From assembly GCF_003852405.1 (NCBI RefSeq), contig NZ_QAJM01000010.1, positions 204 to 64,203 on the forward strand: a stretch of 64,000 bases of DNA. The letters run 5' to 3'. Below, one piece after another: positions 7,885 through 19,709 of the stretch. A model generated the notes under the pieces. It worked only from the letters and a program-made list of their open reading frames with translations, ran no database searches and was not told the origin of the DNA. How positions within the stretch are numbered: the first letter of the stretch is position 1; the number at the start of each line of letters is the position of its first letter. The position numbers and the translations under genes are program-made. Source of the DNA: Pseudomonas sp. KBW05 (GTDB lineage Bacteria; Pseudomonadota; Gammaproteobacteria; Pseudomonadales; Pseudomonadaceae).

Positions 7885-7908
7885 TTGCGGGGAAATAGGG
7901 GGTGGGGA

Positions 7909-7930
7909 TGCGAAAACTTGGGTTTTCGCA
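7909..7930. terminator. Hairpin after lapC
   Basis: TGCGAAAAC (7909-7917) pairs with GTTTTCGCA (7922-7930) around a 4-base loop. There is no T-tract on the plus strand, so it is at best a weak terminator or an mRNA-end stabiliser for lapEBC. Confidence 0.4.
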
Positions 7931-7951
7931 AAAATAGTCAGATTTCAGGGG

Positions 7952-7979
7952 TTTACAGAACCTTGGCAGTCGCTATAAT
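7952..7979 (+). promoter_or_regulatory. Sigma-70 promoter of the tRNA-Thr gene
   Basis: TTTACA (7952-7957) and a perfect TATAAT (7974-7979) are separated by 16 bases. The -10 box ends 13 bases before the tRNA 5' end, as expected for a stable-RNA promoter. Confidence 0.8.
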
Positions 7980-7992
7980 CGTCGCCCAACAC

Positions 7993-8068
<76 letters not shown>

Positions 8069-8078
8069 TATAAGACGA

Positions 8079-8111
8079 AGCCCCTGCAGAAATGCAGGGG
8101 CTTTGTTGTTT
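8079..8111 (+). terminator. Intrinsic terminator after tRNA-Thr
   Basis: AAGCCCCTGCA pairs with TGCAGGGGCTT around a GAAA tetraloop, followed by TGTTGTTTTT. This is a strong factor-independent terminator. Confidence 0.85.
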
Positions 8112-8340
8112 TTGGGGTGTTCATATTCTGTCTGCGCCTGGCGCCCCAGCTGAACAAGCCGGTGAGCCTCTAGAAGTAGCGAAGTCCCGCCTTCAGAGTT
8201 TTATGTAGAATTATGGGTAGCCAATAATTATGGCGTATCGATAAAAGAGCTAATTCATAAGCACATGCCGCTGCGACCCCGAATTTTCGTACACCCATAT
8301 CAGCTTGCCTCCCCATCCTCCGCCCCGCTAACCTCCCCCA
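8112..8340. other. Non-coding stretch at the left end of the island
   Basis: No convincing coding sequence or RNA gene is seen here. It lies between the tRNA terminator and the hairpin-rich element at 8341. Confidence 0.5.
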
Positions 8341-8419
8341 GCCGCTGCAAAATCAGCGGCCGGATGTGGAAGTCCGTACTATGGCTAAAGGCGCTCAAAC
8401 GCCCATGAACACCTGACGG
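8341..8419 (+). ncRNA. Candidate small structured RNA / degenerate leader with terminator
   Basis: Three elements follow one another. A perfect hairpin has GCCGCTG (8341-8347) pairing with CAGCGGC (8354-8360). A copy of TGTGGAAGT and GGCTAAAGG-GCT follows, resembling the leader of the next gene (TGTGGAAGTG and CGCTAAAGGAGCT). A terminator ends it, with AACGCC pairing with GGCGTT followed by eight T. No reading frame sits between them. It may be a stand-alone small RNA or the relic of an earlier copy of the downstream leader. No transcript evidence is available. Confidence 0.35.
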
Positions 8420-8465
8420 CGTTTTTTTTCGCCTGTATTCTTGTGTTATGGCGGCTGTGTGCGGG

Positions 8466-8577
8466 GCACTTCGGTGCGCCGGGTTCCTTTAGCCCCGGTC
8501 TTCCACACCTGCGCACAGCTGCCACCCTCATGTGGAAGTGAGATTGGCAGTTCCTGAATCGCTAAAGGAGCTTCGCC
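8466..8577 (+). promoter_or_regulatory. Structured 5' leader of the DUF6124-like gene
   Basis: Three nested or adjacent helices can be drawn before the start codon: GCAC-TTCG-GTGC (8466-8477), CCGGG (8479-8483) with CCCGG (8494-8498), and CTTCCACA (8500-8507) with TGTGGAAG (8531-8538). The ribosome site AAAGGAGC lies just before the ATG. I recall similar leaders before related Pseudomonas genes, but could not check conservation. Confidence 0.5.
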
Positions 8578-8919
8578 ATGTTCAAGGTCACACCCAACCC
8601 GCCTCAAAACCCAATCGATGCCAAGCTTCATGCTGCAGCGCAGCGAGCGATTGATCATTACTTGCACCCATCAGACGGCGCAGAACCTGCGGCGCATCCA
8701 GGCAGTAATCTGTTCTCCGTTTCGCCCGATGTAGATACCGAAACACTGCTTACTAATGCCGCAGAAACCCTCTCATCAGCCAACGAGATGGTCTCGAATC
8801 TGGCATTTGAGCTGGAAGGATCACAAAGGGCTGTGGCATTGGGGATTCAGCAACTGATCGAGTTGAGTTCAATGCTGGCAGATCGAGCTTTGGAACAAAT
8901 TGCGCCGGCAGCCAGTTAA
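8578..8919 (+). CDS. DUF6124-like (formerly DUF3077-type) small protein
   Basis: 113 residues, no signal peptide or membrane segment. The C-terminal half (about 60-108) is a helical module, ETLLTNAAETLSSANEMVS then SQRAVALGIQQLIELSSML, typical of small Pseudomonas proteins formerly called DUF3077. Function is unknown. The ATG at 8578 follows AAAGGAGCTTCGCC, a good ribosome-binding site. The gene is monocistronic, behind a structured leader and before a strong terminator. Paralogues of this family are commonly scattered in accessory regions of Pseudomonas genomes, which fits its place just inside the island. Confidence 0.75.
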   Translation: MFKVTPNPPQNPIDAKLHAAAQRAIDHYLHPSDGAEPAAHPGSNLFSVSPDVDTETLLTNAAETLSSANEMVSNLAFELEGSQRAVALGIQQLIELSSMLADRALEQIAPAAS

Positions 8920-8932
8920 TTCCGATAGACCA

Positions 8933-8969
8933 AAAAACGCCCCGGACCATCACGGCCTGGGGCGTTTTT
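8933..8969 (+). terminator. Intrinsic terminator
   Basis: AAAAACGCCCC pairs with GGGGCGTTTTT around a loop of about 14 bases. It terminates the DUF6124-like gene and, being symmetrical, could also act on the minus strand for the broken SDR gene. Confidence 0.85.
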
Positions 8970-8985
8970 CATTCAGCTGTATCGC

Positions 8986-9092
8986 TTAGTGACCAGCATT
9001 CTGCCTAGCGTCCACATGCAGAATTTCCCCCGTCACAAACCCGGCCGACTCCAAATGTACAATCGCCTGCGCAATATCCCGCGCTTCCCCCT
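8986..9092 (-). pseudogene. C-terminal remnant of a short-chain dehydrogenase/reductase
   Basis: Only the last 34 or so codons survive: EARDIAQAIVHLESAG then FVTGEILHVDARQNAGH and a stop. This is the C-terminal end of the SDR fold (the 'TGEILHVDGG' region, here with DAR). The reading frame ends abruptly at about 9092, where an unrelated AT-richer sequence with inverted repeats begins, so roughly 200 upstream codons have been lost. It marks an old insertion or deletion junction. Confidence 0.8.
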
Positions 9093-9100
9093 AGGGAATA

Positions 9101-9150
9101 GGGGTCAGATCACTCGTTTAATTCAGTAACGAAAATCGTGGTCTGACCCC
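9101..9150. mobile_element. Small inverted-repeat (MITE-like) element
   Basis: GGGGTCAGATCAC (9101-9113) and GTGGTCTGACCCC (9138-9150) are inverted repeats with one mismatch, flanking 24 bases. The element starts exactly where the SDR remnant is cut. GGGGTCAGA-type ends are familiar from small non-autonomous elements and REP-associated transposase ends in Pseudomonas. No transposase is present, so mobility is an inference. Confidence 0.5.
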
Positions 9151-9234
9151 GTTTTTCCACTCGCCTAAAAGCAAAACGTGGCGCAACCGAGTAAGCGCTC
9201 GGTCTTCAAATTTCAGTGATCCGCTTGTCCACGC

Positions 9235-9279
9235 GGGCCATCCAAGCAGGGCTGCAAAGCCGCCCTGCTTGGATGGCCC
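9235..9279. repeat. Perfect 18-bp inverted repeat
   Basis: GGGCCATCCAAGCAGGGC (9235-9252) and GCCCTGCTTGGATGGCCC (9262-9279) are perfectly complementary around a 9-base loop. There is no T-tract on either side, so it is not a typical terminator. Role unknown; it lies between the SDR relic and the recombinase. Confidence 0.85.
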
Positions 9280-10103
9280 TCACTTGAAAATTCTAAAGCC
9301 CATACAACTGCCTGTGGAAAACCACTGATTTCCACCGGTGGATAATTTCATCCACAGCCGCCGAACTCCCGAAAATTTGAGTCTTGACCCGAATTATCCG
9401 CAGGCGTAGATGAGATCGGGCAAAGCGCTGTCGTCGACAGCAATCCAGGTAGCCAGAACCTTTAAGGCTACGCCACACGGTGGTGGTTCTCCCAAAGTGC
9501 GATTAGCGTCCGGCGGCTCGCACGGTCACAGCGATGTGATGGATGCCTACTTTTACCAGTGTTCCCACTGCGGCAACTCATCCCCTTTCATAGCTGCCCT
9601 GCAGCAACCTATCCGCTTAGACATTTCCTTGCGCCAACCTGCGCCCGTCTCTTTCTTCCGGAAAGAGACGGGCGCTCCTACCGCTGCTGCAGCCCAACTC
9701 GTACAAGGCTTTGCGGCATTACCCCTCGCGACAATCGGCGGGACAAACACCGAAGTCACCAGCAACAGCAATGCAAATGATGGTGCCGCAGCCCACGGAA
9801 TGGACTGCACCTGACTGACAGTCAGGCACGCCCCGGTCATCGCATCACTGCCTTCACCCGACTCAGGATCTCGTGGCATTGGTCTCGTCAGCCAATGCAG
9901 CCTCTACCCGCCCACTTCTTCAGAGGTGCTCAGGAGGTCAGGTAATGAGATGCCCAAGCTCCCAGTCGTAAAGAGCCGCCAGTCCCGCGTTAGTGGACAA
10001 CCCTCACAGGTCGCAGGGGCCTTGACCCCTGATAACACTCAACATTCGTGGCGGGATGACGTGGGGAAAGTTTCAAAGATTTGGCTTCGACAGGAGTTTG
10101 ATC
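9280..10103. other. About 820 bp without a convincing gene, before the recombinase
   Basis: Two overlapping open frames on opposite strands (about 9410-9814 plus, 9553-9879 minus) cover part of this stretch. The minus frame would encode a small protein with one hydrophobic segment (SFALLLLVTSVFVPPIV). Neither has a convincing ribosome site or a family I recognise, so I do not call a gene. A 15-bp perfect hairpin lies at 9641-9675. Confidence 0.4.
9641..9675. repeat. Perfect 15-bp inverted repeat
   Basis: GCGCCCGTCTCTTTC (9641-9655) pairs with GAAAGAGACGGGCGC (9661-9675) around TTCCG. No T-tract follows. It is the second strong hairpin within 450 bp upstream of the recombinase gene. Function unknown. 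Confidence 0.8.
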
Positions 10104-11084
10104 ATGGCATTGGTAGGTAGACGGGATGGGCGGAATTTTGGATATGGACGGCAACTGAGTTATGCCGGGCCACAGGCGTTGCGCGATCTGTTTGGCGGCG
10201 GGCATTACGGCACGGTCAAGGCGCACAGTGATCGCTGGCAGGCGTTTGTGCGCTGGTGTCGCTCAGATGATGGACCAAGACTCAACGATGCGCGGCAGAT
10301 AGATCGCCAGATCTTGTCGGATTACGCGGCGCATCTACGTCACTTAGTCGAGCGCGGCGACCTCGCTATCGCCACCGCACAAAACCGATTGTCCAGCGTC
10401 AACCGAACCATGGCGGCACTTCGCGGTGATCAGTATGTGAAGGTGCCGAGTCCGAGCAAGGCGTTGGAAATGCAGCGCACCACCATCCGCACGACAGTTC
10501 CACAAGGCCAAGACCGCGAACACGTGCAGCGGATCGTCGACGTACTTTACGAACACCAGAAGCCGCGCGCCGCGACCATCGCTCAGTTAGCGCGAGCCAC
10601 CGGCATGCGCTTACGTGAGGCCATTTTGGCGGACCTACCCCGTCTAAAACGTGAAGCCAAGCAATTCGGTAAGATCAACATTCAGGACGGCACCAAAGGT
10701 AGCCGCTCGGGCGCATCAGCTCCTCGTTGGATTACGGTAGATGATCATATTCGTGACGCGCTGAAGTTTGCCGATCAGGTCTCGCCCGACGGCAGCCGCA
10801 ACCTGCTTGCACCGAACGAACGCTACCTCGATTTCCAAAAGCGAATCGTCCGTCCAGCCCGGGACACCCTTCATGCGCACAACCTAAAAGGCTTCCACGA
10901 ACTGCGGGCTGCCTATGCGTGCGAACGCTATCAGCAAATCACCCAGCATCCTGCGCCCATCAACGGTGGCAGTTGCTACCAGCTCGACCGACACCTCGAT
11001 CAGGCGGCCCGAGACCAAATCAGCTATGAACTCGGGCACGGCCGTATCGACGTAGTATCGGCGTATATCGGGGGACGAGCATGA
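10104..11084 (+). CDS. Tyrosine recombinase (integrase) of the island
   Basis: 326-residue tyrosine recombinase. A SAM-like core-binding domain lies at about residues 20-120 (HSDRWQAFVRWCRSD). The catalytic domain follows, with Arg169 in TGMRLREA, the His265-x-x-Arg268 box in FHELRAAYA, and LGHGRIDVVSAYIGG with a probable nucleophile Tyr321 near the C-terminus. It resembles the Phage_int_SAM_2/Integrase_1 type found in genomic islands more than lambda Int. The start at 10104 is chosen because AGGAG lies 8 bases upstream; a longer in-frame start at 10056 lacks one. It ends in an ATGA overlap with the next gene. It is the obvious candidate for integration at the tRNA-Thr site. Confidence 0.85.
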   Translation: MALVGRRDGRNFGYGRQLSYAGPQALRDLFGGGHYGTVKAHSDRWQAFVRWCRSDDGPRLNDARQIDRQILSDYAAHLRHLVERGDLAIATAQNRLSSVNRTMAALRGDQYVKVPSPSKALEMQRTTIRTTVPQGQDREHVQRIVDVLYEHQKPRAATIAQLARATGMRLREAILADLPRLKREAKQFGKINIQDGTKGSRSGASAPRWITVDDHIRDALKFADQVSPDGSRNLLAPNERYLDFQKRIVRPARDTLHAHNLKGFHELRAAYACERYQQITQHPAPINGGSCYQLDRHLDQAARDQISYELGHGRIDVVSAYIGGRA

Positions 11085-11356
11085 GCAAGCCATTCGATAT
11101 GGAGCTGTTTCTGGGGGGTGTTCTGAGCGGGTCGTACTCCACACGCCAGCGTCACCTTCGCCAAGCGAAAGCCATTCAAGTAGCGATCTTTAATCGTTGG
11201 CACAAAGATAATCCATGGGCATGGCAGCAAAAGCATCTCGCATGGTTTCTAAACCACCACGTGAACTCTTACGCGGAATCGACGCGCTATTACTATCTGC
11301 TGACCATACATTTTCTCACTCTTCGCTTAGGAAAACCTTGGCGGTTCGAGGGTTAA
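11081..11356 (+). CDS. Small protein coupled to the recombinase
   Basis: 91 residues, basic, rich in aromatic residues, with STRQRHLRQAKAI and a C-terminal half WQQKHLAWFLNHHVNSYAE, STRYYYLLTIHFLTLRLG. The ATG overlaps the recombinase stop codon by 4 bp, so the two are co-translated. I do not recognise the family. Its size, charge and position suggest a recombinase accessory factor, but this is inference from context only. The second half also resembles an N-terminal core-binding domain of tyrosine recombinases, so it could be a fragment of one. Confidence 0.6.
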   Translation: MSKPFDMELFLGGVLSGSYSTRQRHLRQAKAIQVAIFNRWHKDNPWAWQQKHLAWFLNHHVNSYAESTRYYYLLTIHFLTLRLGKPWRFEG

Positions 11357-11517
11357 GCGGAAGTCCTCAACTGACCAGATTAGGACGACCAGACCCAAAG
11401 GGTCTTGAGTTTTAGTGGCAACTTATCGAAACGCTTCCTCAATCCCACGGCGCATGGCAAATTGACATCGACCTCCAAAAAATCCGAACACGCGCCCCCA
11501 GAGAAAAAGGAGTTTCC

Positions 11518-14166
11518 ATGTCGATATTGCAGGAAATACTGAGCTGGACCCAGGGACTACCTACCTGGCAAAGCGATTGCGTTGCACGACTGTTAGCAAA
11601 ACAGACTCTAACTGCAGAGGATTTGGGTGACTTACTAGCCTTGCTCAAGACTGCTCATGGTATTCCTGACCCGAAAGGCCGCACGCCAAGCCCGCTTGCA
11701 TCCGATCAGATCCCCGCTCCGATAAAGCCATCGATGCATGTCGAATTGCGGGCAATGAAGAACTTACTAAATGTTAATGCCATTGCCGAAAACCAGAACC
11801 TGTCTTTCGCACCTTCCGGCTTGACCGTTATTTACGGCGGTAATGGCTCGGGCAAATCGGGCTACTCCCGTGTGCTCAAGCGCGCATGCCGTGCGCGTGA
11901 TCAAGCTGAAGTCATTTATCCCAACGCCAACCGACCCGTGAACAAAGCTGCCTCGGCTGAAGCCATCTTTGAAATCGGTGTTAACGGTACGGTACAAGAC
12001 GTACGCTGGGTTAATGAGGGAGCTGCACCCGTAGAGCTATCTGCTCTCTCCATTTTCGACTCACGCTGCGCCAATGCTTATCTTGTAAATGAAGACGACT
12101 TTTCGTACGTACCTCAGGGACTCGATGTTTTTGAACGACTGGCAAGTGTCCATCAGCAATTGAAGAGCGCAATTGAGGCGGAGCAGAAACAATACGCAGT
12201 TGACCTGACTGCGTTTGTTCCGTTGCACGGTGACACGATTGTCGGAAGATTAATCACAACGCTGTCTGCCAAGACTACTCCTGCCCAGATTGAAGCACTG
12301 GCCACGTTGTCCCCTGAAGAACTGAGCCTGCACGCAGATTTAGGCAACAGCCTAAAAGAAAACAATCCCAAGGAAAAAGCTAACCAACTGAGGTTACTCG
12401 CGCGCCGAGTTGGCGGCATTGCAACGAATGCTACCCACAAGGCGACGTTGGTGGATCAAGCAATCGTTACCAAGCTGCGCAGTCTGTCGAGTGCCTACCT
12501 AACCGCCAAAGCAGCTGCGGAGCTGGCTGCAAATCAGTTCAAGGAACAAGATGGTTTACTGCCAGGAACAGGAGGCGAAGCTTGGCGCGAGCTATTCGAA
12601 GCCGCACGCAAATTTTCCTCTGAGTCCCACCCGGATGAAACCTTTCCTGCATTGGGAAGCGATGCGTCCTGTCCCCTGTGTCAGCAGCCGCTCATGGAGG
12701 GGGCTAATCGCTTGGCTCGCTTTGAAGCCTTCATTCAACAAGAGGCAGAGAAAACTTCTCAGGCTCGACGCGCTGAATTGGTTGCCCAGTATAAACCGCT
12801 AAGTACACATGATCTGACTCTCGGTCTGGACGACGCTACACTCAGCGAAATTCAAACACTTGACTCTCAACTTGCGGCGGATTCAGCTGCCTTCGAGCAA
12901 GTTCTGACAGCTCGCCGAGAAACCATCAAGACAGCGGTGACTACACAAATATGGGAAGGAGCCGAGCAAGCATTGGTCAATCCAGCCCAAAGGCTACAGG
13001 CCCTCGCAGACAAGCTAAATGCCGAGGCTGTAAATCTGGATAAAGCATCTGATGAACAGGCTCGAGCAAAATTGCAGAAGCAGCTGGATGAGCTTGATGC
13101 AAGAGTAAAACTGAGCCAAGTCAAAGATGCTGTCATTACGGCTGTCTCACGGCTGAATCATCAGGCAAAACTGACAAAGTGCTTGCCTGCGCTCAGGACG
13201 AACGCAATTTCCTTGAAGTCCTCTGAGTTGGCAGAAAGCATCATTTCAAAGGGGCTTGCGGATGCACTTAATGCTGAATTCAAGGCGCTAGGGGTTGGAG
13301 GACTTCGTGTCGCTCTGCAAAGCCGCTCTGGGAAAGGTAAGGTATTGCATAAGCTAAAGCTGGAGTTACCGCAAAGCCGAAGTCCCCGAGACCTATTGAG
13401 CGAAGGTGAACAACGAGCTGTTGCATTAGCTTCATTTTTAGCTGAAGTGGGGCTTAGTGATAGCACTGGCGGTATTATTTTCGACGACCCAGTATCGTCC
13501 TTAGATCACCGACGTCGTGAGCGGGTGGCTGCGCGACTCGTAGATGAAGCTGCTCGGCGCCAAGTGATCGTGTTCACCCATGACATCTACTTCCTTTGCG
13601 TCCTGGCTGAGGAGGCTGAATCCGCAGGGGTCAACGTACTCACACAAAGCCTATCCAGGCGCGTCGAAGGCTTCGGGGTTGCCAATCCAGAGCTACCGTT
13701 CGAAGGGAAAAACACAACGAAACGCATCGGAGCGCTCAAGGTTCAGCAGCAAACCATCGCAAGACTGCATAAAGACGGCGAGGAAGATGCGCACCGTGAA
13801 CAGACAGGTGAAGCGTATTTTTTCCTGCGGATGGCTTGGGAGCGCGCGGTTGAGGAAGTACTGCTACGCCGAGTAGTTCTACGCTTTCGTAAAGGCATCG
13901 AAACCCAGCGATTGTCAGAAGTGATTGTTGATGATAACGACTATGCACAAGTAAATTCTGGGATGAGCAAATGCTCAAATTACGCACACGATAAGGCCAT
14001 AGTAGGAGGAGTCGCTGTGCCAGAGCCAGATGAATTGCTGGCTGACATCATGGCTCTTGAAACTTGGCGCGACCAAATTGAACGCCGCAGCAAGAGTACG
14101 AGCCAAAGCCGTAAATCAGGGTTGCCTACATCTACCCTCCCCACGCCTACCGCAACCGCTCCGTAG
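11518..14166 (+). CDS. RloC/PrrC-like AAA ATPase with zinc-hook motif
   Basis: 882-residue SMC/ABC-type ATPase. An N-terminal helical region (1-75) is followed by Walker A GGNGSGKS (107-114). A central coiled coil is interrupted by CPLC (385-388), a Rad50-like zinc-hook motif. The signature LSEGEQ (627-632) and Walker B IIFDDPVSSLD (653-663) then follow. In the C-terminal domain I see Arg771-x3-Glu775 (LRMAWE) and His824 (NYAHDK). This spacing recalls the Arg-x3-Glu...His triad of PrrC/RloC anticodon nucleases. RloC is defined by that nuclease combined with a zinc hook. No type I restriction genes accompany it here. The ATG is preceded by AAAAAGGAG. Base composition is more AT-rich than the flanks. 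Whether the C-terminus is truly a nuclease is not settled. Confidence 0.65.
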   Translation: MSILQEILSWTQGLPTWQSDCVARLLAKQTLTAEDLGDLLALLKTAHGIPDPKGRTPSPLASDQIPAPIKPSMHVELRAMKNLLNVNAIAENQNLSFAPSGLTVIYGGNGSGKSGYSRVLKRACRARDQAEVIYPNANRPVNKAASAEAIFEIGVNGTVQDVRWVNEGAAPVELSALSIFDSRCANAYLVNEDDFSYVPQGLDVFERLASVHQQLKSAIEAEQKQYAVDLTAFVPLHGDTIVGRLITTLSAKTTPAQIEALATLSPEELSLHADLGNSLKENNPKEKANQLRLLARRVGGIATNATHKATLVDQAIVTKLRSLSSAYLTAKAAAELAANQFKEQDGLLPGTGGEAWRELFEAARKFSSESHPDETFPALGSDASCPLCQQPLMEGANRLARFEAFIQQEAEKTSQARRAELVAQYKPLSTHDLTLGLDDATLSEIQTLDSQLAADSAAFEQVLTARRETIKTAVTTQIWEGAEQALVNPAQRLQALADKLNAEAVNLDKASDEQARAKLQKQLDELDARVKLSQVKDAVITAVSRLNHQAKLTKCLPALRTNAISLKSSELAESIISKGLADALNAEFKALGVGGLRVALQSRSGKGKVLHKLKLELPQSRSPRDLLSEGEQRAVALASFLAEVGLSDSTGGIIFDDPVSSLDHRRRERVAARLVDEAARRQVIVFTHDIYFLCVLAEEAESAGVNVLTQSLSRRVEGFGVANPELPFEGKNTTKRIGALKVQQQTIARLHKDGEEDAHREQTGEAYFFLRMAWERAVEEVLLRRVVLRFRKGIETQRLSEVIVDDNDYAQVNSGMSKCSNYAHDKAIVGGVAVPEPDELLADIMALETWRDQIERRSKSTSQSRKSGLPTSTLPTPTATAP

Positions 14167-14172
14167 ATATGG

Positions 14173-14204
14173 AAAAAGCTCGCCAACATAGGGTGGCGGG
14201 CTTT
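14173..14204 (+). terminator. Terminator-like hairpin after the RloC-like gene
   Basis: AAAGCTCGCCA pairs with TGGCGGGCTTT (one G-U pair) around a short loop, 7 bases after the stop codon. It separates this gene from the HNH module. A second hairpin, GGAGGCG (14239-14245) with CGCCTCC (14256-14262), follows. Confidence 0.6.
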
Positions 14205-14342
14205 AGGACACAAGATGCGTTATGCGCTAACTAACTATGGAGGCGGCGAATCAAGCGCCTCCACGACATGGCGTTTGGACCGGAGCAAGCCTGAGGCATG
14301 TAACTTTTTCAATTCGCTTTTCGCTAAAGAGCAACGCGCCAC

Positions 14343-14528
14343 ATGGTTGAAGTATTTTTAAATCTTTGCACGGCCGTCATCATTGCCAGTTTGTCCACAT
14401 GGCTGAGTAGCGTTTGGAAGGACCGAATCAACTCGAGAGATAACAGGCGTACCGAAACTTTCATAGAGCTGCTCAAAGCCGGACACTCTCGCCTGGCACA
14501 GAACCTTGAGCATGCATTACAAATCTAA
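14343..14528 (+). CDS. Possible small membrane protein or fragment
   Basis: 61 residues: one N-terminal membrane segment (VFLNLCTAVIIASLSTWLSS) and a charged tail (KDRINSRDNRRTETFIELLKAG). The ribosome site is weak (AAAGAG). The pattern resembles the start of longer one-span hypothetical proteins whose membrane helix is followed by a charged helical tail, so it may be a truncated gene. It sits alone in the 470-bp gap between the two ATPase genes. Confidence 0.35.
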   Translation: MVEVFLNLCTAVIIASLSTWLSSVWKDRINSRDNRRTETFIELLKAGHSRLAQNLEHALQI

Positions 14529-14638
14529 CGTCATGCGGTTCAACTGGGGCATGCTACCTCTGATAGGCTTCCCGACAAAGTCTATAGAAACTGTAAGCTC
14601 GAACGAAAGTCCGTCTAGATTAGCTGGAGAAGGGTTCC

Positions 14639-16861
14639 TTGTTAAAAGTTAATAGATCAAATGTTAGCTATCCTGAATGGCTCCGCAGCCCTCAAGCAGC
14701 AAATGCTCAAAGTTTTTTGGCAAAGTTCTATAGCTCCGACCCGGAGTATCGAGCGACTAGACGTGCACCGTTTGAGGAACTTCCTAGGCCTCAAGTGAAA
14801 GAGGCACTTGAAGAGCTTTTTCATGGAAAGTGTGCTTACTGCGAGTCGGACATCCGAGGCTCGGGAAGTGAAATAGATCACTTTAGGCCGAAAGCCGCGG
14901 CAAGTAATTTAAAGGGCGACAAGCAAAATGCAGATCACTATGGCTGGTTTCTTTATGAGTGGAGCAACCATTTTCTGTCATGCCTCTCCTGTAACCGGGC
15001 TAAGCGAAATCTTTTCCCTGTAGATGGCCCTCGCGCTCCGGTTCTTTCGTCTTGGATCGAGGCTTGTCGGAGTGAAACGGCACTGCTGCTGGACCCTTGC
15101 TTGGATACGCCGGAGCGTCATCTTCGTTTTGACCTGAAAGGGGTTGCCTTCGGCAGGACTAAGCGGGGAAAAGCGACTATCGATGTTCTGAACCTGAACC
15201 GAGAAAATCTCGTCGCTGCCAGAAGAGAAAAATTTGAGCACTGTGCGGAACTTTTGGAGGTATTGCGGCAGGGTGGAAAGTACATAGCAGATACTCTGAT
15301 GAAAGAGCTAGATGACGCCTCGGCTTACTCGGGAGCGGCACGGGTTTTCTTGTATCAAACCTACAGTAAATACATGAGAGCAGAAGGGCGTCGATCACCA
15401 GCCTTTAATAGCTTCTTAGCTCAGGAGTTGTGGCGAGACACGCGATTGTTTGGAGAAACTAGAGTTTTAGATGCTCTGGAAGAAAAGGGCATTTCAGCTA
15501 CAGGAATAGTGCAGGTTATACATGACAGAGAAGAACCTGTACTTCCATCTTTAAAGACGGCGGGCGCATTCAAAGATATTCGCGGATCTAGTGCTGTCTC
15601 AATGATCTGCAGAGTGGAGATCTCTGACTTTAAGGATATTCAGAGACTGGATCTCAAGTTTCAAACTTCTGAAAGCGAAAAGGGTCAAGGATGTGCAATG
15701 CTAATCGGAGAAAACTCCGTAGGAAAAAGCAGCGTGCTGCAGGCAATCGCACTATGTCTTATGGGCGAAGAACTCAGAGATATGTTGAAGATCAACGCTG
15801 AAGACTTCATTGCACGGGAAATCGAAGGCTGGAAGCACACGCGAACGAAAGATGCGGTCGTCAAAGTCGAGTTCAAATCAGGCGATATTGTGACGCTGGT
15901 AATCCCTTGCGCCGGTCCTTGGTTCGATGGCAGTGACGAACCGTCAGGTGTAGTTCTAGGTTATGGTGCAAGGCGTTACTTCGATGATAAAAGAAAGCAG
16001 TCGGCAACTCATTTTGGTCTGCGTACTCTGTTCGAGCCCTCCGCCACAATTTCCCACCCTGAGCGGTGGCTGCAAAGGCAGGATGAGAAAACCTTCAACG
16101 CAGTCGCGAGAGCTATGAGGGATATACTGTTGCTTCAACCTGATGACGAAATTCATCGGGATGAAGAGGGACGTATATATGTGACCGCTCATCAACGCAT
16201 GACTCCAATTGACCGGCTGAGTGATGGCTATAAATCGTTGTTCGCCATGGCCGTCGATATAATGCGTGAGATGGTGAGCGTTTGGGGAAATCTTGAGTTC
16301 GCTCGAGGCGTAGTTCTTATTGATGAAGTTGAGACACATCTTCATCCTCGATGGAAGATGCAGGTGATCAATGCTTTACGCAGTGCAATGCCGCAAGTTC
16401 AGTTTATAGCGACCACTCATGACCCCCTATGCCTTCGAGGCATGCGTGATGGCGAAGTAAAGGTATTGTTTCGCGATGAAGACAAGGTGATTCAGACTCT
16501 TGAGGGGTTGCCCAAGCTTTCGTCGCTACGCGCCGAGCAACTGCTTACTTCGGACTATTTCGGACTTGTCAGCACATCGGATCCTGTAGTTGAGGCGGAG
16601 TTAGAGGAATATGCTTTGCTTTCGTCTGGAGCAACTCTAACGCCTGACAGGCAGGCCCGATTGGACGAGCTATCAATATCTACAGCAACCCTTACGGTTA
16701 TCGGCGATACGCCTGGACAGCAGATTGTTTCCGAAGCTTATAGAGAGTATTTAATCGAGCGCGGAACCGTGGATGCAGCAAAACGTAATGAATTGCGGCG
16801 CGATGCGGTGGAAGACGTACTTAGGGCTCTTCGTGCAAGGAAGACCAATGCGCAAGGTTGA
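14639..16861 (+). CDS. HNH nuclease-AAA ATPase fusion protein (Septu/PtuAB-like parts)
   Basis: 740-residue fusion. Residues 1-~200 are an HNH nuclease of the PtuB/TIGR02646 kind: Cys65-A-Y-Cys68, the IDHFRPK motif (79-85, catalytic His81) and Cys115-L-S-Cys118-N. Residues ~325-740 are an OLD/PtuA-like ATPase: Walker A GENSVGKSS (357-365), Walker B VLIDEVETHLHP (Asp562, Glu563) and H-loop ATTHDP (His594). In Septu systems the ATPase and HNH nuclease are separate genes with the ATPase first; here they are fused with the nuclease first. The start is a TTG at 14639 behind GGAGAAGGG. The 3' end overlaps the next HNH gene by 14 bp. AT-rich composition suggests recent transfer. A role in phage or plasmid defence is likely but inferred. 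Confidence 0.8.
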   Translation: MLKVNRSNVSYPEWLRSPQAANAQSFLAKFYSSDPEYRATRRAPFEELPRPQVKEALEELFHGKCAYCESDIRGSGSEIDHFRPKAAASNLKGDKQNADHYGWFLYEWSNHFLSCLSCNRAKRNLFPVDGPRAPVLSSWIEACRSETALLLDPCLDTPERHLRFDLKGVAFGRTKRGKATIDVLNLNRENLVAARREKFEHCAELLEVLRQGGKYIADTLMKELDDASAYSGAARVFLYQTYSKYMRAEGRRSPAFNSFLAQELWRDTRLFGETRVLDALEEKGISATGIVQVIHDREEPVLPSLKTAGAFKDIRGSSAVSMICRVEISDFKDIQRLDLKFQTSESEKGQGCAMLIGENSVGKSSVLQAIALCLMGEELRDMLKINAEDFIAREIEGWKHTRTKDAVVKVEFKSGDIVTLVIPCAGPWFDGSDEPSGVVLGYGARRYFDDKRKQSATHFGLRTLFEPSATISHPERWLQRQDEKTFNAVARAMRDILLLQPDDEIHRDEEGRIYVTAHQRMTPIDRLSDGYKSLFAMAVDIMREMVSVWGNLEFARGVVLIDEVETHLHPRWKMQVINALRSAMPQVQFIATTHDPLCLRGMRDGEVKVLFRDEDKVIQTLEGLPKLSSLRAEQLLTSDYFGLVSTSDPVVEAELEEYALLSSGATLTPDRQARLDELSISTATLTVIGDTPGQQIVSEAYREYLIERGTVDAAKRNELRRDAVEDVLRALRARKTNAQG

Positions 16862-17804
16862 CAGAACGACCGTAACTGCACCTACTTCATTGATATCGGC
16901 TACAGGTGCAGGAGCTAATGAGCGTCCGCTAGCATTAACCTACTTTAGTGCTCCCCCTTTAGCTGACGGCGAAAAGCCGAGAAAAAAATTTAAGTTCGCT
17001 GCATACAAGGGCGACGATGTTGTGGATGCATTAAAGGAGCTTTTTCATGAAAAGTGCGCCTATTGTGAATCAGAATTTATTGCCACCGGCCCAGCTGATA
17101 TTGAACACTACCGTCCTAAAGGGGGAGTTCAGGAAGATCCAACTCACGTTGGCTACTGGTGGCTAGCGAGCGAGTGGACGAACCTTCTATATAGTTGCAT
17201 TGACTGTAACCGAAGACGACGTCATAAGCTCTTTGTACCAGGCATGGCACTGAAAGCAATCAATGCCATAAAAAACAAGTCAATTGGCAAGAAAAACTCA
17301 TTCGCTATCAATAAGGTTCGAGCAGTTAAGCTCGGTGACTGCCTTAATGCTGAGGATGCTCTGCTAATAGACCCTACTCGACGTGATCCAACTCAGCACT
17401 TGCAATGGCTCTTTGACTTTTCTGTCACTCCAGATCAATGTCCTGCCCTAGTTTTACCGACCAACAATAATAATACAGCGGATATGTATGGCGCTGAGAC
17501 CATCGTGGCCCTCGCCCTAAACCGACAGGGATTGGTGCAGCAGCGAACGAAGCACTTGCTAAACCTCAGGGTAATGCTTCGATATATTCAGGATGATATC
17601 GAAGCAGCGATGTCAGAGACAGGCGCAGACAGATCTCGCAGCATTCAGAGAGCGATAGGAAAATTGAGTGATTTAGAAGGCAAGAGTGCTGCGACTGAAT
17701 GCTATTCAGAGATGACCAAGGCTTGGTTCGAAGAGGCGGCGCGTTGGCTGGAGGATCACTACCAGCGGCGTCTAGAGGAAATCCTTGTTGAGGAGCAGCC
17801 CTAG
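16848..17804 (+). CDS. Second HNH nuclease, paralogous to the fusion's N-terminus
   Basis: 318-residue HNH protein with Cys70-A-Y-Cys73, IEHYRPK (85-91, catalytic His87) and Cys117-I-D-Cys120-N-R. It shares the words ELFH-KCAYCES, H-RPK and EW-N---SC--CNR with the N-terminal domain of the preceding fusion, so the two HNH domains are related by duplication or common recruitment. The middle and C-terminal part (about 130-318) is helical and has no motif I recognise. The ATG at 16848 lies inside the end of the upstream gene, behind AAGGAAG, so the two are translationally coupled. It probably forms a complex with, or is loaded by, the fusion ATPase. Confidence 0.8.
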   Translation: MRKVDRTTVTAPTSLISATGAGANERPLALTYFSAPPLADGEKPRKKFKFAAYKGDDVVDALKELFHEKCAYCESEFIATGPADIEHYRPKGGVQEDPTHVGYWWLASEWTNLLYSCIDCNRRRRHKLFVPGMALKAINAIKNKSIGKKNSFAINKVRAVKLGDCLNAEDALLIDPTRRDPTQHLQWLFDFSVTPDQCPALVLPTNNNNTADMYGAETIVALALNRQGLVQQRTKHLLNLRVMLRYIQDDIEAAMSETGADRSRSIQRAIGKLSDLEGKSAATECYSEMTKAWFEEAARWLEDHYQRRLEEILVEEQP

Positions 17805-18031
17805 ATTAAATTGTTCGTCTCACCAGATTGAATCCCAGCTGGTTTCATAGACACGTCTGAATGACTTACGTGCAGGTCGACAACGTGCTGATACCTTATA
17901 AATCCCGGATTCGACTCCACAGAAATCCATAACTAGCTGATTTATTTATAGTTACCGGTTGGGGGACGACAAGTTTTCCAGCGAATTCCAGACCTGCAAA
18001 AAACCTAGCCTCGCCGACCACTACCGTTCGT
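17805..18031. other. Gap before attR with a T-arm-like tRNA scrap
   Basis: No gene is seen. AATCCCGGATTCGACTCC at about 17901-17918 resembles the T-arm of the tRNA-Thr gene (CCCGGGTTCGACTCC) and may be a degenerate integration footprint. Confidence 0.45.
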
Positions 18032-18049
18032 CTGGTGCCGGCACCATAT
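18032..18049 (+). other. attR-like site: duplicate of the tRNA-Thr 3' end
   Basis: CTGGTGCCGGCACCATAT is identical to 8054-8071. GTTCG just upstream (18026-18030) also matches the T-loop of the tRNA, but the bases between are altered, so this copy does not encode a tRNA. It bounds a 10-kb element with the recombinase at 10104. Confidence 0.8.
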
Positions 18050-18054
18050 CTCGA

Positions 18055-18071
18055 AGCCCCGCAATGCGGGG
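18055..18071 (+). terminator. Hairpin just right of attR
   Basis: GCCCCGC pairs with GCGGGGC around AAT, followed by CTTGTGGTTT. It resembles the tRNA-Thr terminator and may be its displaced counterpart. A third similar hairpin is at 19594-19615. Confidence 0.6.
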
Positions 18072-18573
18072 CCTTGTGGTTTCTGGGGTTTGGGCAACTT
18101 CAAAAACTTGCACTGCGTTTTCGGCAAGAATGCCCAAAAAGTGTCCACACTTGAAAACCAGGGCTGCTTGCCTCAACCCCACTTCGTCTTCTACGACGCC
18201 TCACTCCGCTCGACACCCGCCTCGCTAGCCACACCAGCCAAATCTGCCGACTCACGAAAGTGATCAGCATTGACGCTCTCCGAAGCGCGATCCAACTCTC
18301 CCCGCCTCGCCATCCTGCCTATTCCCATTTTCGCCGGATCAGTAACACGCCCTCACGATTTCCCATCCCCCATTCGTGAGTGCCAGCATTGAGTAAAACT
18401 GAGCTTGCAGACAGGCTACCGCCTCCCCGGTTAGTGCTTTCATTGCCAATGAGCGCCCCTTCGACGCTTGACGGTAGCGATAGCCCAACAGTTGACATCA
18501 ATGATGACTCTGTCATCATCGGTCCACTACTCAGCCCCGTACGCAGTGATTAAATTCTCTGGCCGTTGGGGTG
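18072..18573. other. About 500 bp without a recognisable gene
   Basis: No reading frame here has codon use or a ribosome site I trust. It lies between attR and a strong terminator and looks like decayed island DNA. Confidence 0.5.
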
Positions 18574-18599
18574 AAAAACCGGCCCTTGTGCCGGTTTTT
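18574..18599 (+). terminator. Intrinsic terminator
   Basis: AAAAACCGG (18574-18582) pairs with CCGGTTTTT (18591-18599) around CCCTTGTG, with further T residues. No intact gene precedes it on the plus strand, so it probably belonged to a deleted gene. Confidence 0.8.
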
Positions 18600-18619
18600 T
18601 CGTTTCTGAGGGTTGAGTC

Positions 18620-18817
18620 TTGCGTACAGCTTGCTTTGTCGACGGTTACAACCTGTTTTACGGCCTCCTGGCGGGTACTCCGTACAAATGGCTCGATCTT
18701 CCTTCTCTGCTCTCCCACATCGTTCGTGTTGAACACCCCGACAGTACGGTCAACGGCATCAGCTTCTTCACCTCAGGCGTCACCTCGAATACCTACGCAC
18801 AAAAAACCAGCCCTTAA
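18620..18817 (+). pseudogene. Truncated NYN-domain (LabA/DUF88-type) gene
   Basis: The frame opens with the typical NYN start RTACFVDGYNLFYGLL, then YKWLDLPSLLSHIVRVEHP and a strand ending FFTSGV (about 52 residues). It then reads into unrelated residues (SNTYAQKTSP) and stops. Intact NYN proteins of this type are several times longer and carry further acidic catalytic residues, so this is a 5' fragment. Members are predicted RNases. The break near 18780 is another rearrangement point in the island. Confidence 0.75.
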
Positions 18818-18965
18818 ACCTGCCTATTGGTAGATCTGCGCGTTGCAAGTGCCCGGCATTCAAAATCACGGGAAAGCGCGGGCAAGGGGTCCATCCCCAT
18901 TTCACCCGCCCAACCGACAAAGCGCTATTGACCACCTCCCCCCCAAAGCCTAACGTTTGCATACC

Positions 18966-18996
18966 GTGTACACAGCGTATACAGATATGTATGGAG
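18966..18996 (+). promoter_or_regulatory. Operator-like repeats before the toxin-antitoxin pair
   Basis: TGTACA (18967-18972), TATACA (18978-18983) and TGTATG (18988-18993) recur within 27 bp just before the antitoxin start and overlap its GGAG ribosome site. Ribbon-helix-helix antitoxins usually bind such short repeats to repress their own operon. Assignment is by position and pattern. Confidence 0.5.
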
Positions 18997-19003
18997 CAAC
19001 GTT

Positions 19004-19270
19004 ATGGCAGCCTCTCCCGTTCTGTCTTTCCGAGTAAAGCCCGAGCTTGCCAACGAGTTGGATCAACTGGCACACGCAACTGACCGAGATCGTCAATACC
19101 ATCTGCAGCGAGCTTTGAGCCGCTATATGGCCGATGAGTCCTGGCATTTCAAAGCCGTGCAAGAAGGCATCGAGGATGCTGCAGCCGGCAACGTCACTGA
19201 TCTGGATGCCGTAAAGGCTAAGTGGGTAAAACGTGCCGAAGATCGCATTAAGCAGCAAAGCGGAAAGTGA
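19004..19270 (+). CDS. Ribbon-helix-helix (CopG/ParD-type) antitoxin
   Basis: 88 residues. The N-terminal beta strand VLSFRVKPELANELDQLA followed by a helix-turn-helix pair is the ribbon-helix-helix DNA-binding fold, and the acidic C-terminal half (GIEDAAAGNVTDLDAVKA) is the usual toxin-binding tail. The ATG is preceded by GGAG. It overlaps the toxin gene by 38 bp, so both are made from one mRNA. It is expected to neutralise the toxin and repress the operon. Confidence 0.85.
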   Translation: MAASPVLSFRVKPELANELDQLAHATDRDRQYHLQRALSRYMADESWHFKAVQEGIEDAAAGNVTDLDAVKAKWVKRAEDRIKQQSGK

Positions 19271-19523
19271 CCTGGATGGAATTTACGAGCACTACGAAGC
19301 ATTAGTTGGCGCTGAGCTGGGGGAGGCTGCCGTCTTTCATATTCTCAGCAGTCTGGAGATGCTGGAGCGCTTCCCTAACGCGGGTAAAGCGTCTCCAAGC
19401 CCCGATTGCCGGGAGCTCATCATCACCACCTACCCGTATCGGGCTACGTACAGCCTGCAAGGTGATCGAGTGATAGTGTTTCGAATTCTTCATCAGCATT
19501 CAGCGCGTCGTGAAGATTGGTGA
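19233..19523 (+). CDS. RelE/ParE-family toxin
   Basis: 96 residues with the ParE/RelE fold: SSKAESDLDGIYEHY (first helix), FPNAGKASP (loop), CRELIITTYPYRATYSL and VIVFRILHQHSARR (C-terminal strands with the conserved R-x-L-H-x-x-R pattern). The start is a GTG at 19233 within the antitoxin gene. The family acts on DNA gyrase (ParE) or ribosome-bound mRNA (RelE); sequence closeness to ParE is my impression only. The pair may stabilise the island. Confidence 0.85.
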   Translation: MPKIALSSKAESDLDGIYEHYEALVGAELGEAAVFHILSSLEMLERFPNAGKASPSPDCRELIITTYPYRATYSLQGDRVIVFRILHQHSARREDW

Positions 19524-19546
19524 TACATAAAACGTTCCAGCAAGAG

Positions 19547-19590
19547 GACCTACTGATTACAAGTCAGTAGGTCACGATTCAGCGCCACAG
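19547..19590. other. Vestigial tRNA-Thr-like end with palindrome
   Basis: GACCTACTGA-TTACAAG-TCAGTAGGTC (19547-19573) is a perfect 10-bp palindrome with a 7-base loop. Its first 22 bases are the reverse complement of tRNA-Thr positions 8019-8040 (anticodon arm), and its last 10 match that tRNA in the forward sense. A degenerate T-arm-like ACGATTC and CGCCACA follow, then a terminator like that of the tRNA. It looks like the far-right scar of an older integration. Confidence 0.55.
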
Positions 19591-19593
19591 TAC

Positions 19594-19615
19594 AAAGCCC
19601 CGCACGCGGGGCTTT
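19594..19615 (+). terminator. Intrinsic terminator after the vestigial tRNA end
   Basis: AAAGCCCCG pairs with CGGGGCTTT around CACG, followed by GTGGTTTCT. The same GTGGTTTCT follows the hairpin at 18055, so these two ends share a common origin. Confidence 0.75.
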
Positions 19616-19709
19616 GTGGTTTCTGATGTATGAAGAAAGGCAATTTTAATTTGACTCGACACCGCTCATCCAGCATCGAAAGCCCCTTGCCTAAATACCC
19701 CACCATCAC

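Follow-up and report, generated by a model that had tools for sequence, protein, structure and literature searches.

The question raised by this locus is why an ATPase that bears an HNH nuclease domain at its own N-terminus should be encoded next to a second, separate HNH protein. The locus is a pair of overlapping genes at positions 14639–17804 of a stretch of 64,000 nucleotides from Pseudomonas sp. KBW05 (assembly GCF_003852405.1, contig NZ_QAJM01000010.1, positions 204 to 64,203 of the forward strand); the whole of this stretch is called the window, and its first letter is position 1. Judged from its sequence, the pair belongs to Septu, with a PtuA and a PtuB as effectors, and represents a rare two-HNH variant that is already catalogued by a PADLOC model. 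In this subtype the ATPase probably gates a separate, live PtuB, and the fused HNH is probably a zinc-site module that is non-catalytic in most members. The features of the pair are as follows.

14639–16861, forward strand: HNH–PtuA fusion gene, TTG start, 740 amino acids, from the list of open reading frames (ORFs).
14639–15388, forward strand: fused N-terminal HNH domain, with D80, H81, N110, N119 and the four zinc cysteines all present in the window copy.
15602–16861, forward strand: PtuA-type ABC (ATP-binding cassette) ATPase part of the fusion, with Walker A K363, Walker B D562/E563 and switch H594.
16848–17804, forward strand: second HNH gene, PtuB type, ATG start, 318 amino acids, beginning within the 3′ end of the fusion gene.
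16848–16861, forward strand: overlap of the two genes, 14 bp.

An earlier reading, made from the letters alone (the sequence-only reading), had described an HNH–ATPase fusion overlapping a second HNH gene by 14 bp, and both ORFs are present with 16848–16861 common to them. The motif words that it had picked out were found in both proteins where it had placed them. The fusion carries CAYC from residue 65, IDHFRPK from 79 (including His81) and CLSCN from 115, followed by the ATPase motifs GENSVGKSS from 357 (including Lys363), LIDEVE from 560 and THD from 593; the window copy of the second protein has C70/C73, E86-H87, N112 and C117/C120-N121. The starts of both genes align with starts in several relatives, and GGAG and AGGA can be read in the sequence 6–9 bases upstream of them. 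A promoter scan gave fewer hits than in shuffled sequences, and terminators were about as frequent as in shuffles. The fused and the second HNH domain are 30% identical (BLASTP E=2e-23), and profile–profile comparison gave a probability of 100% and E=2.8e-44 over 242 columns. Chance likeness of the motifs was thereby ruled out and the two HNH domains are, on these alignments, paralogous, as had been proposed.

Family membership was assessed with profile models. The whole fusion matched the PADLOC PtuA1 model PDLC00288 over residues 1–735 (835 bits) and the second protein matched the PtuB1 model PDLC00328 over residues 1–304 (284 bits); in the window's own genome, matches to PDLC00328 were found only at the two HNH regions of this locus. 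All of the first six fusions collected, the window's included, matched PADLOC PtuA1 models (6/6). The second protein, which is HNH only, also matched the N-termini of the PtuA1 models PDLC00288, 00291 and 00292 (726–773 positions), so these models already include a fused HNH. The sequence-only reading had taken the pair for an unnamed defence system, and this was rejected: in PADLOC the fusion falls under PtuA1 and the second gene under PtuB1, the outcome which that reading had itself named as telling against it. The window has an ABC ATPase with intact Walker A and B motifs and switch His, an adjoining PtuB-type HNH with its catalytic His, and the gene order ptuA then ptuB, all features of Septu type I. 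On one point it departs from them, for the PtuA of the E. coli systems bears no nuclease domain; since PADLOC PtuA1 includes such fusions, the built-in HNH marks a variant and not an exclusion from Septu type I. The suggestion that the architecture is unlike that of known Septu was thus half right, as the locus differs from the two-gene layout in the N-terminal HNH, but the order of ATPase gene and separate HNH gene is canonical.

Septu-type effector genes also accompany retrons, and the pair could be a retron effector now separated from its reverse transcriptase and msr-msd, these being located at another site or lost. TIGR02646 and the NCBIfam PtuA and PtuB models are retron-associated families, and residues 50–195 of the fusion matched TIGR02646 with 54.7 bits (cut-off 52.15); the second protein, at 41.4 bits, fell under this cut-off. 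Two relatives have a reverse transcriptase close by: L096, on a Priestia megaterium plasmid (3815–7968), has a retron St85-type enzyme beside the pair on the other strand, with DR for DH in its fused HNH, and L146 has a reverse-transcriptase gene nearby. However, scores stayed below the cut-offs of the retron Ec78 PtuA and PtuB equivalogs, NF041760 and NF041761 (PtuA, 115.5 of 500 bits; PtuB, 53.1 of 150 and 45.9 of 150), and a reverse transcriptase was not found among the seven proteins scanned, with Pfam, PADLOC and NCBIfam, from the genomic island around the pair. Matches to Rfam up to E=1 over 7900–19700 included no retron RNA, Rfam's coverage of such RNAs being incomplete. Retron identity is disfavoured by the first of these absences and weakly by the second, and is considered highly unlikely.

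Structure models were made as single chains, that of the fusion with AlphaFold2 and 16 sequences. The fusion model had a mean predicted local distance difference test (pLDDT) score of 74, with a mostly confident N-terminal domain followed by the ATPase. The layout is an HNH-like domain at residues 1 to ∼250, a low-confidence linker at 251–319 (pLDDT <50; block pLDDT 27–46) and the PtuA ATPase at residues ∼320–740. With this model the best Foldseek match in the PDB was 8eea, an E. coli Septu PtuA/PtuAB entry (E=1.8e-18), and the 50 rows shown were all Septu or retron PtuA/PtuAB entries. The model of the second protein had a pLDDT of 90, and sequence profiles of this protein reached solved PtuB chains (9vh1_F, E=3.5e-12).

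The distribution of the two-HNH layout was surveyed in genomes, plasmids and phages. Because scoring was confined to a few top candidates in each genome, the genome counts are minimum values, and in the genus sample a fusion was a single match across most of the profile with E at most 3.1e-152. At least 28 of the 399 genomes sampled from the window's genus had the fusion, its own included, and a second HNH adjoined every one of these 28 fusions (seen in fetched loci for 25 and in the match listing for 3). Two loci of this genus duplicate records of P. fluorescens H24 and P. gingeri. The class-level sample yielded the window's own genome only (at least 1/369), and the phylum-level sample of 398 yielded the own genome and 3 others, again as a lower bound, one further match (G054) being truncated. 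Among 72,556 plasmid records, 26 matched 80% or more of the query at a single site, some of them near-copies; 16 of the 100 plasmid records with a match were fetched by hand, for coverage and host variety. Phage records (50,697) gave 7 partial matches, none reaching 80% of the query, and at least 16 viral loci matched parts of the ATPase only.

For detailed comparison, every ORF of more than 550 amino acids with an HNH and an ATPase match was taken from the fetched loci and 7 duplicates were removed, leaving 59 fusions. These criteria of length and match excluded L141 and L148, in which the ATPase frame is broken or short, and L006, in which the fusion is split; also outside the set are G975, G728 and G839, each with a single long match and an adjoining second HNH match, and G947 and the second copy in G750, both in pieces. 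The hosts comprise 28 Pseudomonas, other Pseudomonadota, Bacteroidota and Bacillota, and include Ensifer, Rhizobium, Sinorhizobium, Rhodobacteraceae, Sphingomonas, Gluconobacter, Janthinobacterium, Klebsiella, Flavobacterium, Kordia, Pedobacter, Neobacillus and Priestia, among others. A PtuB-type HNH gene lies directly downstream on the same strand in 58 of the 59 distinct fusions, at a spacing of −274 to +140 bp when ORFs are counted from the first start codon; the lone exception, L009, has a truncated ATPase. The two-HNH layout is therefore a real conserved variant and the second HNH gene is no accident. Absence of this gene from most homologous loci, which the sequence-only reading had named as telling against its view, is not what was seen.

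The two HNH domains differ in their catalytic residues. In the downstream protein the motif residues C, C, E, H, R, P, K, C, C and N are invariant in 58/58 copies, the window's own included, as is the central Asn (58/58). In the fused domain C65, C68, C115, C118, N110 and F126 are invariant in 59/59, but the catalytic His is kept in 14/59 and is replaced by Arg (32), Gln (7), Leu (4), Met (1) or Asn (1) in the others. The last Asn, of CxxCN, is found in 15/59, and His and last Asn occur together in 5/59: the window copy (L001), L031, L034, L036 and L113. The ATPase of the fusions retains K363 in 59/59 and D562, E563 and H594 in 58/59, the exception being a gap in the truncated L009. Canonical, unfused PtuB served as a control, with 27 rows reduced to 25 distinct sequences by two duplicate genes; picked with a profile from His-bearing sequences, which may favour intact copies, it had both His and central Asn in 25/25 and the last Asn in 16/25. 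As His is universal in this control and the last Asn is not, only His is a sound marker, and the last Asn was dropped as a sign of a dead domain.

Experimental background agrees with this choice of residues. In Septu EcB88, according to PMC13096335, immunity is lost on change of PtuB H75 or N91 or of PtuA K43 or D316. In short canonical PtuB, such as that of L008, the spacing from His to central Asn is 16, as it is from H75 to N91 of EcB88 by our mapping, which would fit the His and central Asn counted here.

These counts bear on the reading in which the two HNH domains are both active, so that fusion and PtuB make up a two-bladed nuclease with one strand or one target for each blade, the window pair being a working example. 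The window copy has the entire motif in both domains, and canonical Septu has a PtuA:PtuB stoichiometry of 6:2 (PMC12948488), so that with a fusion each assembly would be expected to contain more HNH domains. Loss of His from the fused HNH in 45/59, with its retention downstream in 58/58, means that such a scheme cannot hold for most of the family, and as a general explanation it seems unlikely. The sequence-only reading had spoken of an extra paralogous nuclease, a description that probably does not hold for most family members but may apply to the window, where the copy looks intact and may still cut.

On the ATPase tree 30 of the 45 His-less copies form one clade (for example L003, L007, L045 and L103), in which the former His is Arg in 28/30 and the preceding residue is Tyr or His in 30/30; this clade thus appears to carry a conserved new motif, [YH]RFRP, and not the product of random decay. 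A further 14 His-less copies, with Arg, Gln, Leu, Met or Asn, are scattered over the tree, and L009 lies outside it. The HNH and ATPase trees were quick ones and included the 27 unfused rows (25 distinct). The 58 full-length fused ATPases fall on one side of a branch from the 27 unfused PtuA rows, with a Shimodaira–Hasegawa-like approximate likelihood ratio (SH-aLRT) support of 99. The state of the His requires at least 5 changes in either direction on the ATPase tree, or 9 losses if it was never regained. The scattered intact copies fit a live ancestor and repeated losses of His, the deep branches being weakly supported.

Selection on the fused HNH was estimated from the ratio of nonsynonymous to synonymous substitution (dN/dS) in 16 pairs chosen by eye. 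Three were without a usable HNH dS, 12 were usable His-less pairs, and one usable pair, L091–L142 (fused HNH dN/dS 0.11), is His-bearing and was not counted among the 12. The ratio for the fused HNH was 0.08–0.21 in 9/12 and 0.32–0.38 in 3/12, namely L103–L105 (with almost no synonymous change), L103–L107 and L107–L108; because some loci enter more than one pair and dS is >1 in several, this is a rough measure. Elsewhere the ratio was 0.07–0.20 for the ATPase, 0.08–0.22 for the downstream gene and up to 1.02 for the linker. The His-less fused HNH was under purifying selection in most usable pairs and is mostly not decaying.

The same values allow a second reading to be weighed, that the fused HNH is a vestige of an old duplication, retained merely because a fusion is not easily undone. 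The recurrent disappearance of the catalytic His and the fast-evolving linker agree with a vestige, as do the three pairs with the higher ratios and the lower conservation of the domain: at 60–70% ATPase identity (33 pairs), the fused HNH was 51% and PtuB 66% identical. Against this stand the four Cys, N110 and F126 in every copy and the low ratios in the other nine pairs. A fusion with an intact ATPase but without the domain was never seen, which is a weak argument as detection required the HNH. Simple retention of a relic is accordingly regarded as improbable, and the fused HNH of most members looks like a maintained pseudo-nuclease.

The history of the modules may be less simple than one duplication. 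On the HNH tree the downstream HNHs occupy one side of a branch (support 89) and the fused state requires 3 changes. One clean duplication giving sister clades was considered and disagrees with this tree, but the approximately unbiased (AU) test does not reject a single fused clade (p 0.81; the constrained tree scored higher). In L005, L143, L144 and L146 the fused HNH groups with downstream-type HNHs (support 96), as if re-copied from the downstream gene, yet at the position of the His these have M, Q, L and Q. Comparison of L007 with L118 showed 94–99% identity in the upstream flank and HNH, 89% in the linker, 51–80% in the ATPase and PtuB and 89–95% in the downstream flank; this suggests that ATPase and PtuB were replaced as a unit while the HNH stayed in place. 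L103 and L110 are 89–98% identical in most of the upstream flank, 56–78% in HNH and linker, 75–81% in the first part of the ATPase and 79–95% in the remaining ATPase and PtuB. Only L007–L118, among 1653 pairs, has an HNH that is more than 50% identical and clearly more alike than the ATPase, so module exchange is rarely seen. Identities of the parts were correlated at 0.91 for ATPase and downstream protein, 0.87 for HNH and ATPase and 0.83 for the two HNHs (each as high in 0/999 permutations); with the third part controlled, the partial correlations were 0.68, 0.51 and 0.18, respectively. From these patterns we read the ATPase plus PtuB as the core of the system and the fused HNH as a separable module.

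The explanation that we favour, as more likely than not, is the following. The PtuA ATPase bears its N-terminal PtuB-like HNH on a probably flexible linker, and the separate PtuB, made from the overlapping next gene, would be the active enzyme, its residues being intact at every sampled locus that has it. The ATPase would assemble and keep PtuB inactive until a phage-caused change in ATP, or another trigger, frees it. The freed PtuB would then cut nucleic acid, either phage DNA or host tRNA, as in different Septu and retron-Septu effectors, and halt the infection. The fused HNH would more likely hold, position or gate the live PtuB, or bind the trigger or the target; in the window it may also cut, its catalytic residues being present. 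An anti-phage function, the gating, the target and the role of the fused HNH are all inferences. A further account, to which we give slightly less than an even chance, is that a widespread Septu subtype uses a pseudo-nuclease: the HNH was duplicated and fused, lost its His repeatedly and now, with its zinc bound, serves the live PtuB by control, anchoring or recognition.

Several observations weigh against the favoured explanation. The window copy keeps D80, H81, N110 and N119 and its nearest rows, L113 and L123, are also His-bearing, so the pseudo-nuclease reading rests on the relatives and not on the window copy. With 30 of the 45 His-less copies in one clade and 28 of the 59 fusions in one genus, the number of sequences is not the number of events. 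The three higher dN/dS values and the roughness of that measure count on the same side, as do the manner in which the canonical control was picked and the absence of the last Asn from 9 of its 25 sequences. Strong co-variation of the two HNHs, considered as evidence of a dimer, was not found, and the partial correlation of 0.18 speaks rather against close contact between them. The quality of the fusion model is no more than moderate (predicted template modelling score, pTM, 0.49), and Foldseek with the model of the second protein gave no significant PDB match, PtuB chains included (best E 0.74). Among the papers listed by searches of the open-licence full-text literature, no report of activity of the two-HNH subtype was found.

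If the pseudo-nuclease account is true, the window carries one of few copies with both domains seemingly active, and the subtype offers a natural before-and-after of the passage from nuclease to regulator. To our knowledge there is no settled account of how Septu ATPases hold and release their nuclease. Evolution here supplies a tethered, mostly dead nuclease copy on the ATPase beside a live copy in trans, and comparison of the window copy with His-less relatives could separate the parts of PtuB needed for docking from those needed for cutting. Titles and abstract openings of the open-licence literature, a scope which leaves out the founding Septu papers, contained neither an HNH–PtuA fusion nor a dead HNH in Septu. 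As far as the literature was searched, it is undescribed that a fused HNH is retained while its catalytic His is lost again and again, the architecture itself being catalogued by a model. A caution for annotation is that the label PtuA1 covers both plain ATPases and those with an HNH of their own.

The pair lies in an AT-rich tRNA island next to an ATPase of defence type, as the sequence-only reading had recognized. GC content is 0.485–0.489 in 14–18 kb and 0.575–0.673 outside 8–20 kb, and the island has these further features.

7993–8068: tRNA-Thr, which the island of the pair adjoins.
8054–8071, forward strand: attachment-site (att)-like 18-bp repeat at the 3′ end of tRNA-Thr, 100% identical to 18032–18049.
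10056–11084, forward strand: tyrosine-recombinase integrase of the island (PF12835 E=1.7e-8; phrog_1 integrase E=1.2e-8).
11518–14166, forward strand: AAA_13-type ATPase, PADLOC candidate PDC-S06 (744 bits, 1-858), a neighbour outside the pair.
18032–18049, forward strand: att-like 18-bp repeat at the distal island end, a perfect copy of 8054–8071.

In G668, a relative, sequence 89% identical to the tRNA region as far as window position 8118 is followed directly by sequence like 18032–18151 (85%), so the island is absent from this one genome. Other features were observed in and around the island. Just inside the tRNA end, 8328–8529 matched C4 antisense RNA (Rfam, 74 bits), its a1/b1 target region and isrK; such immunity RNAs are of phage or satellite type, and the island may have come from a satellite. 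A radC-motif RNA (73 bits) at 9413–9546 covers the start of the listed ORF 9410–9814, which may therefore be no gene. The ATPase at 11518–14166 has weak resemblance to PrrC and LmuB besides PDC-S06. Just beyond the distal repeat, a CopG-like antitoxin and a toxin-like gene form a pair at 19004–19523, and 19546–19632 resembles the anticodon arm of tRNA-Thr with a terminator after it, possibly the relic of an older attachment site.

With respect to named systems, PDC-S06 is a defence-type AAA ATPase in the same island and a separate upstream candidate. PARIS is similar in its described working, in that its ABC ATPase, AriA, restrains a nuclease, AriB, until triggered; the PARIS nuclease is TOPRIM, unlike the HNH of the window pair. 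The PtuA–PtuB effectors of type I-A retrons (Ec78/Eco7 and Ec83/Eco4) have an ATPase and an HNH homologous to those of the window, but the scanned island proteins include no reverse transcriptase, the equivalog scores fall short, and retron PtuA is not known to carry a fused HNH. In PADLOC these retrons are Septu type II, which the PADLOC paper (PMC8565338) defines by a reverse transcriptase; the passages of that paper covered here do not mention an HNH-fused PtuA. The targets reported for Septu-type effectors in PMC11555353, PMC13096335 and PMC12948488 are nicked phage DNA for the Septu of E. coli ATCC25922, tRNA-Tyr for retron Eco7 and Septu EcB88, and single-stranded DNA for Ec83. Septu type I (PtuA/PtuB) shares with the window pair the order of an ABC-type ATPase gene and then an HNH gene, PADLOC matches over nearly the full length of both proteins, and the PtuA fold; the window PtuA differs from it in the added N-terminal PtuB-like HNH, which is His-less in most members of the family.

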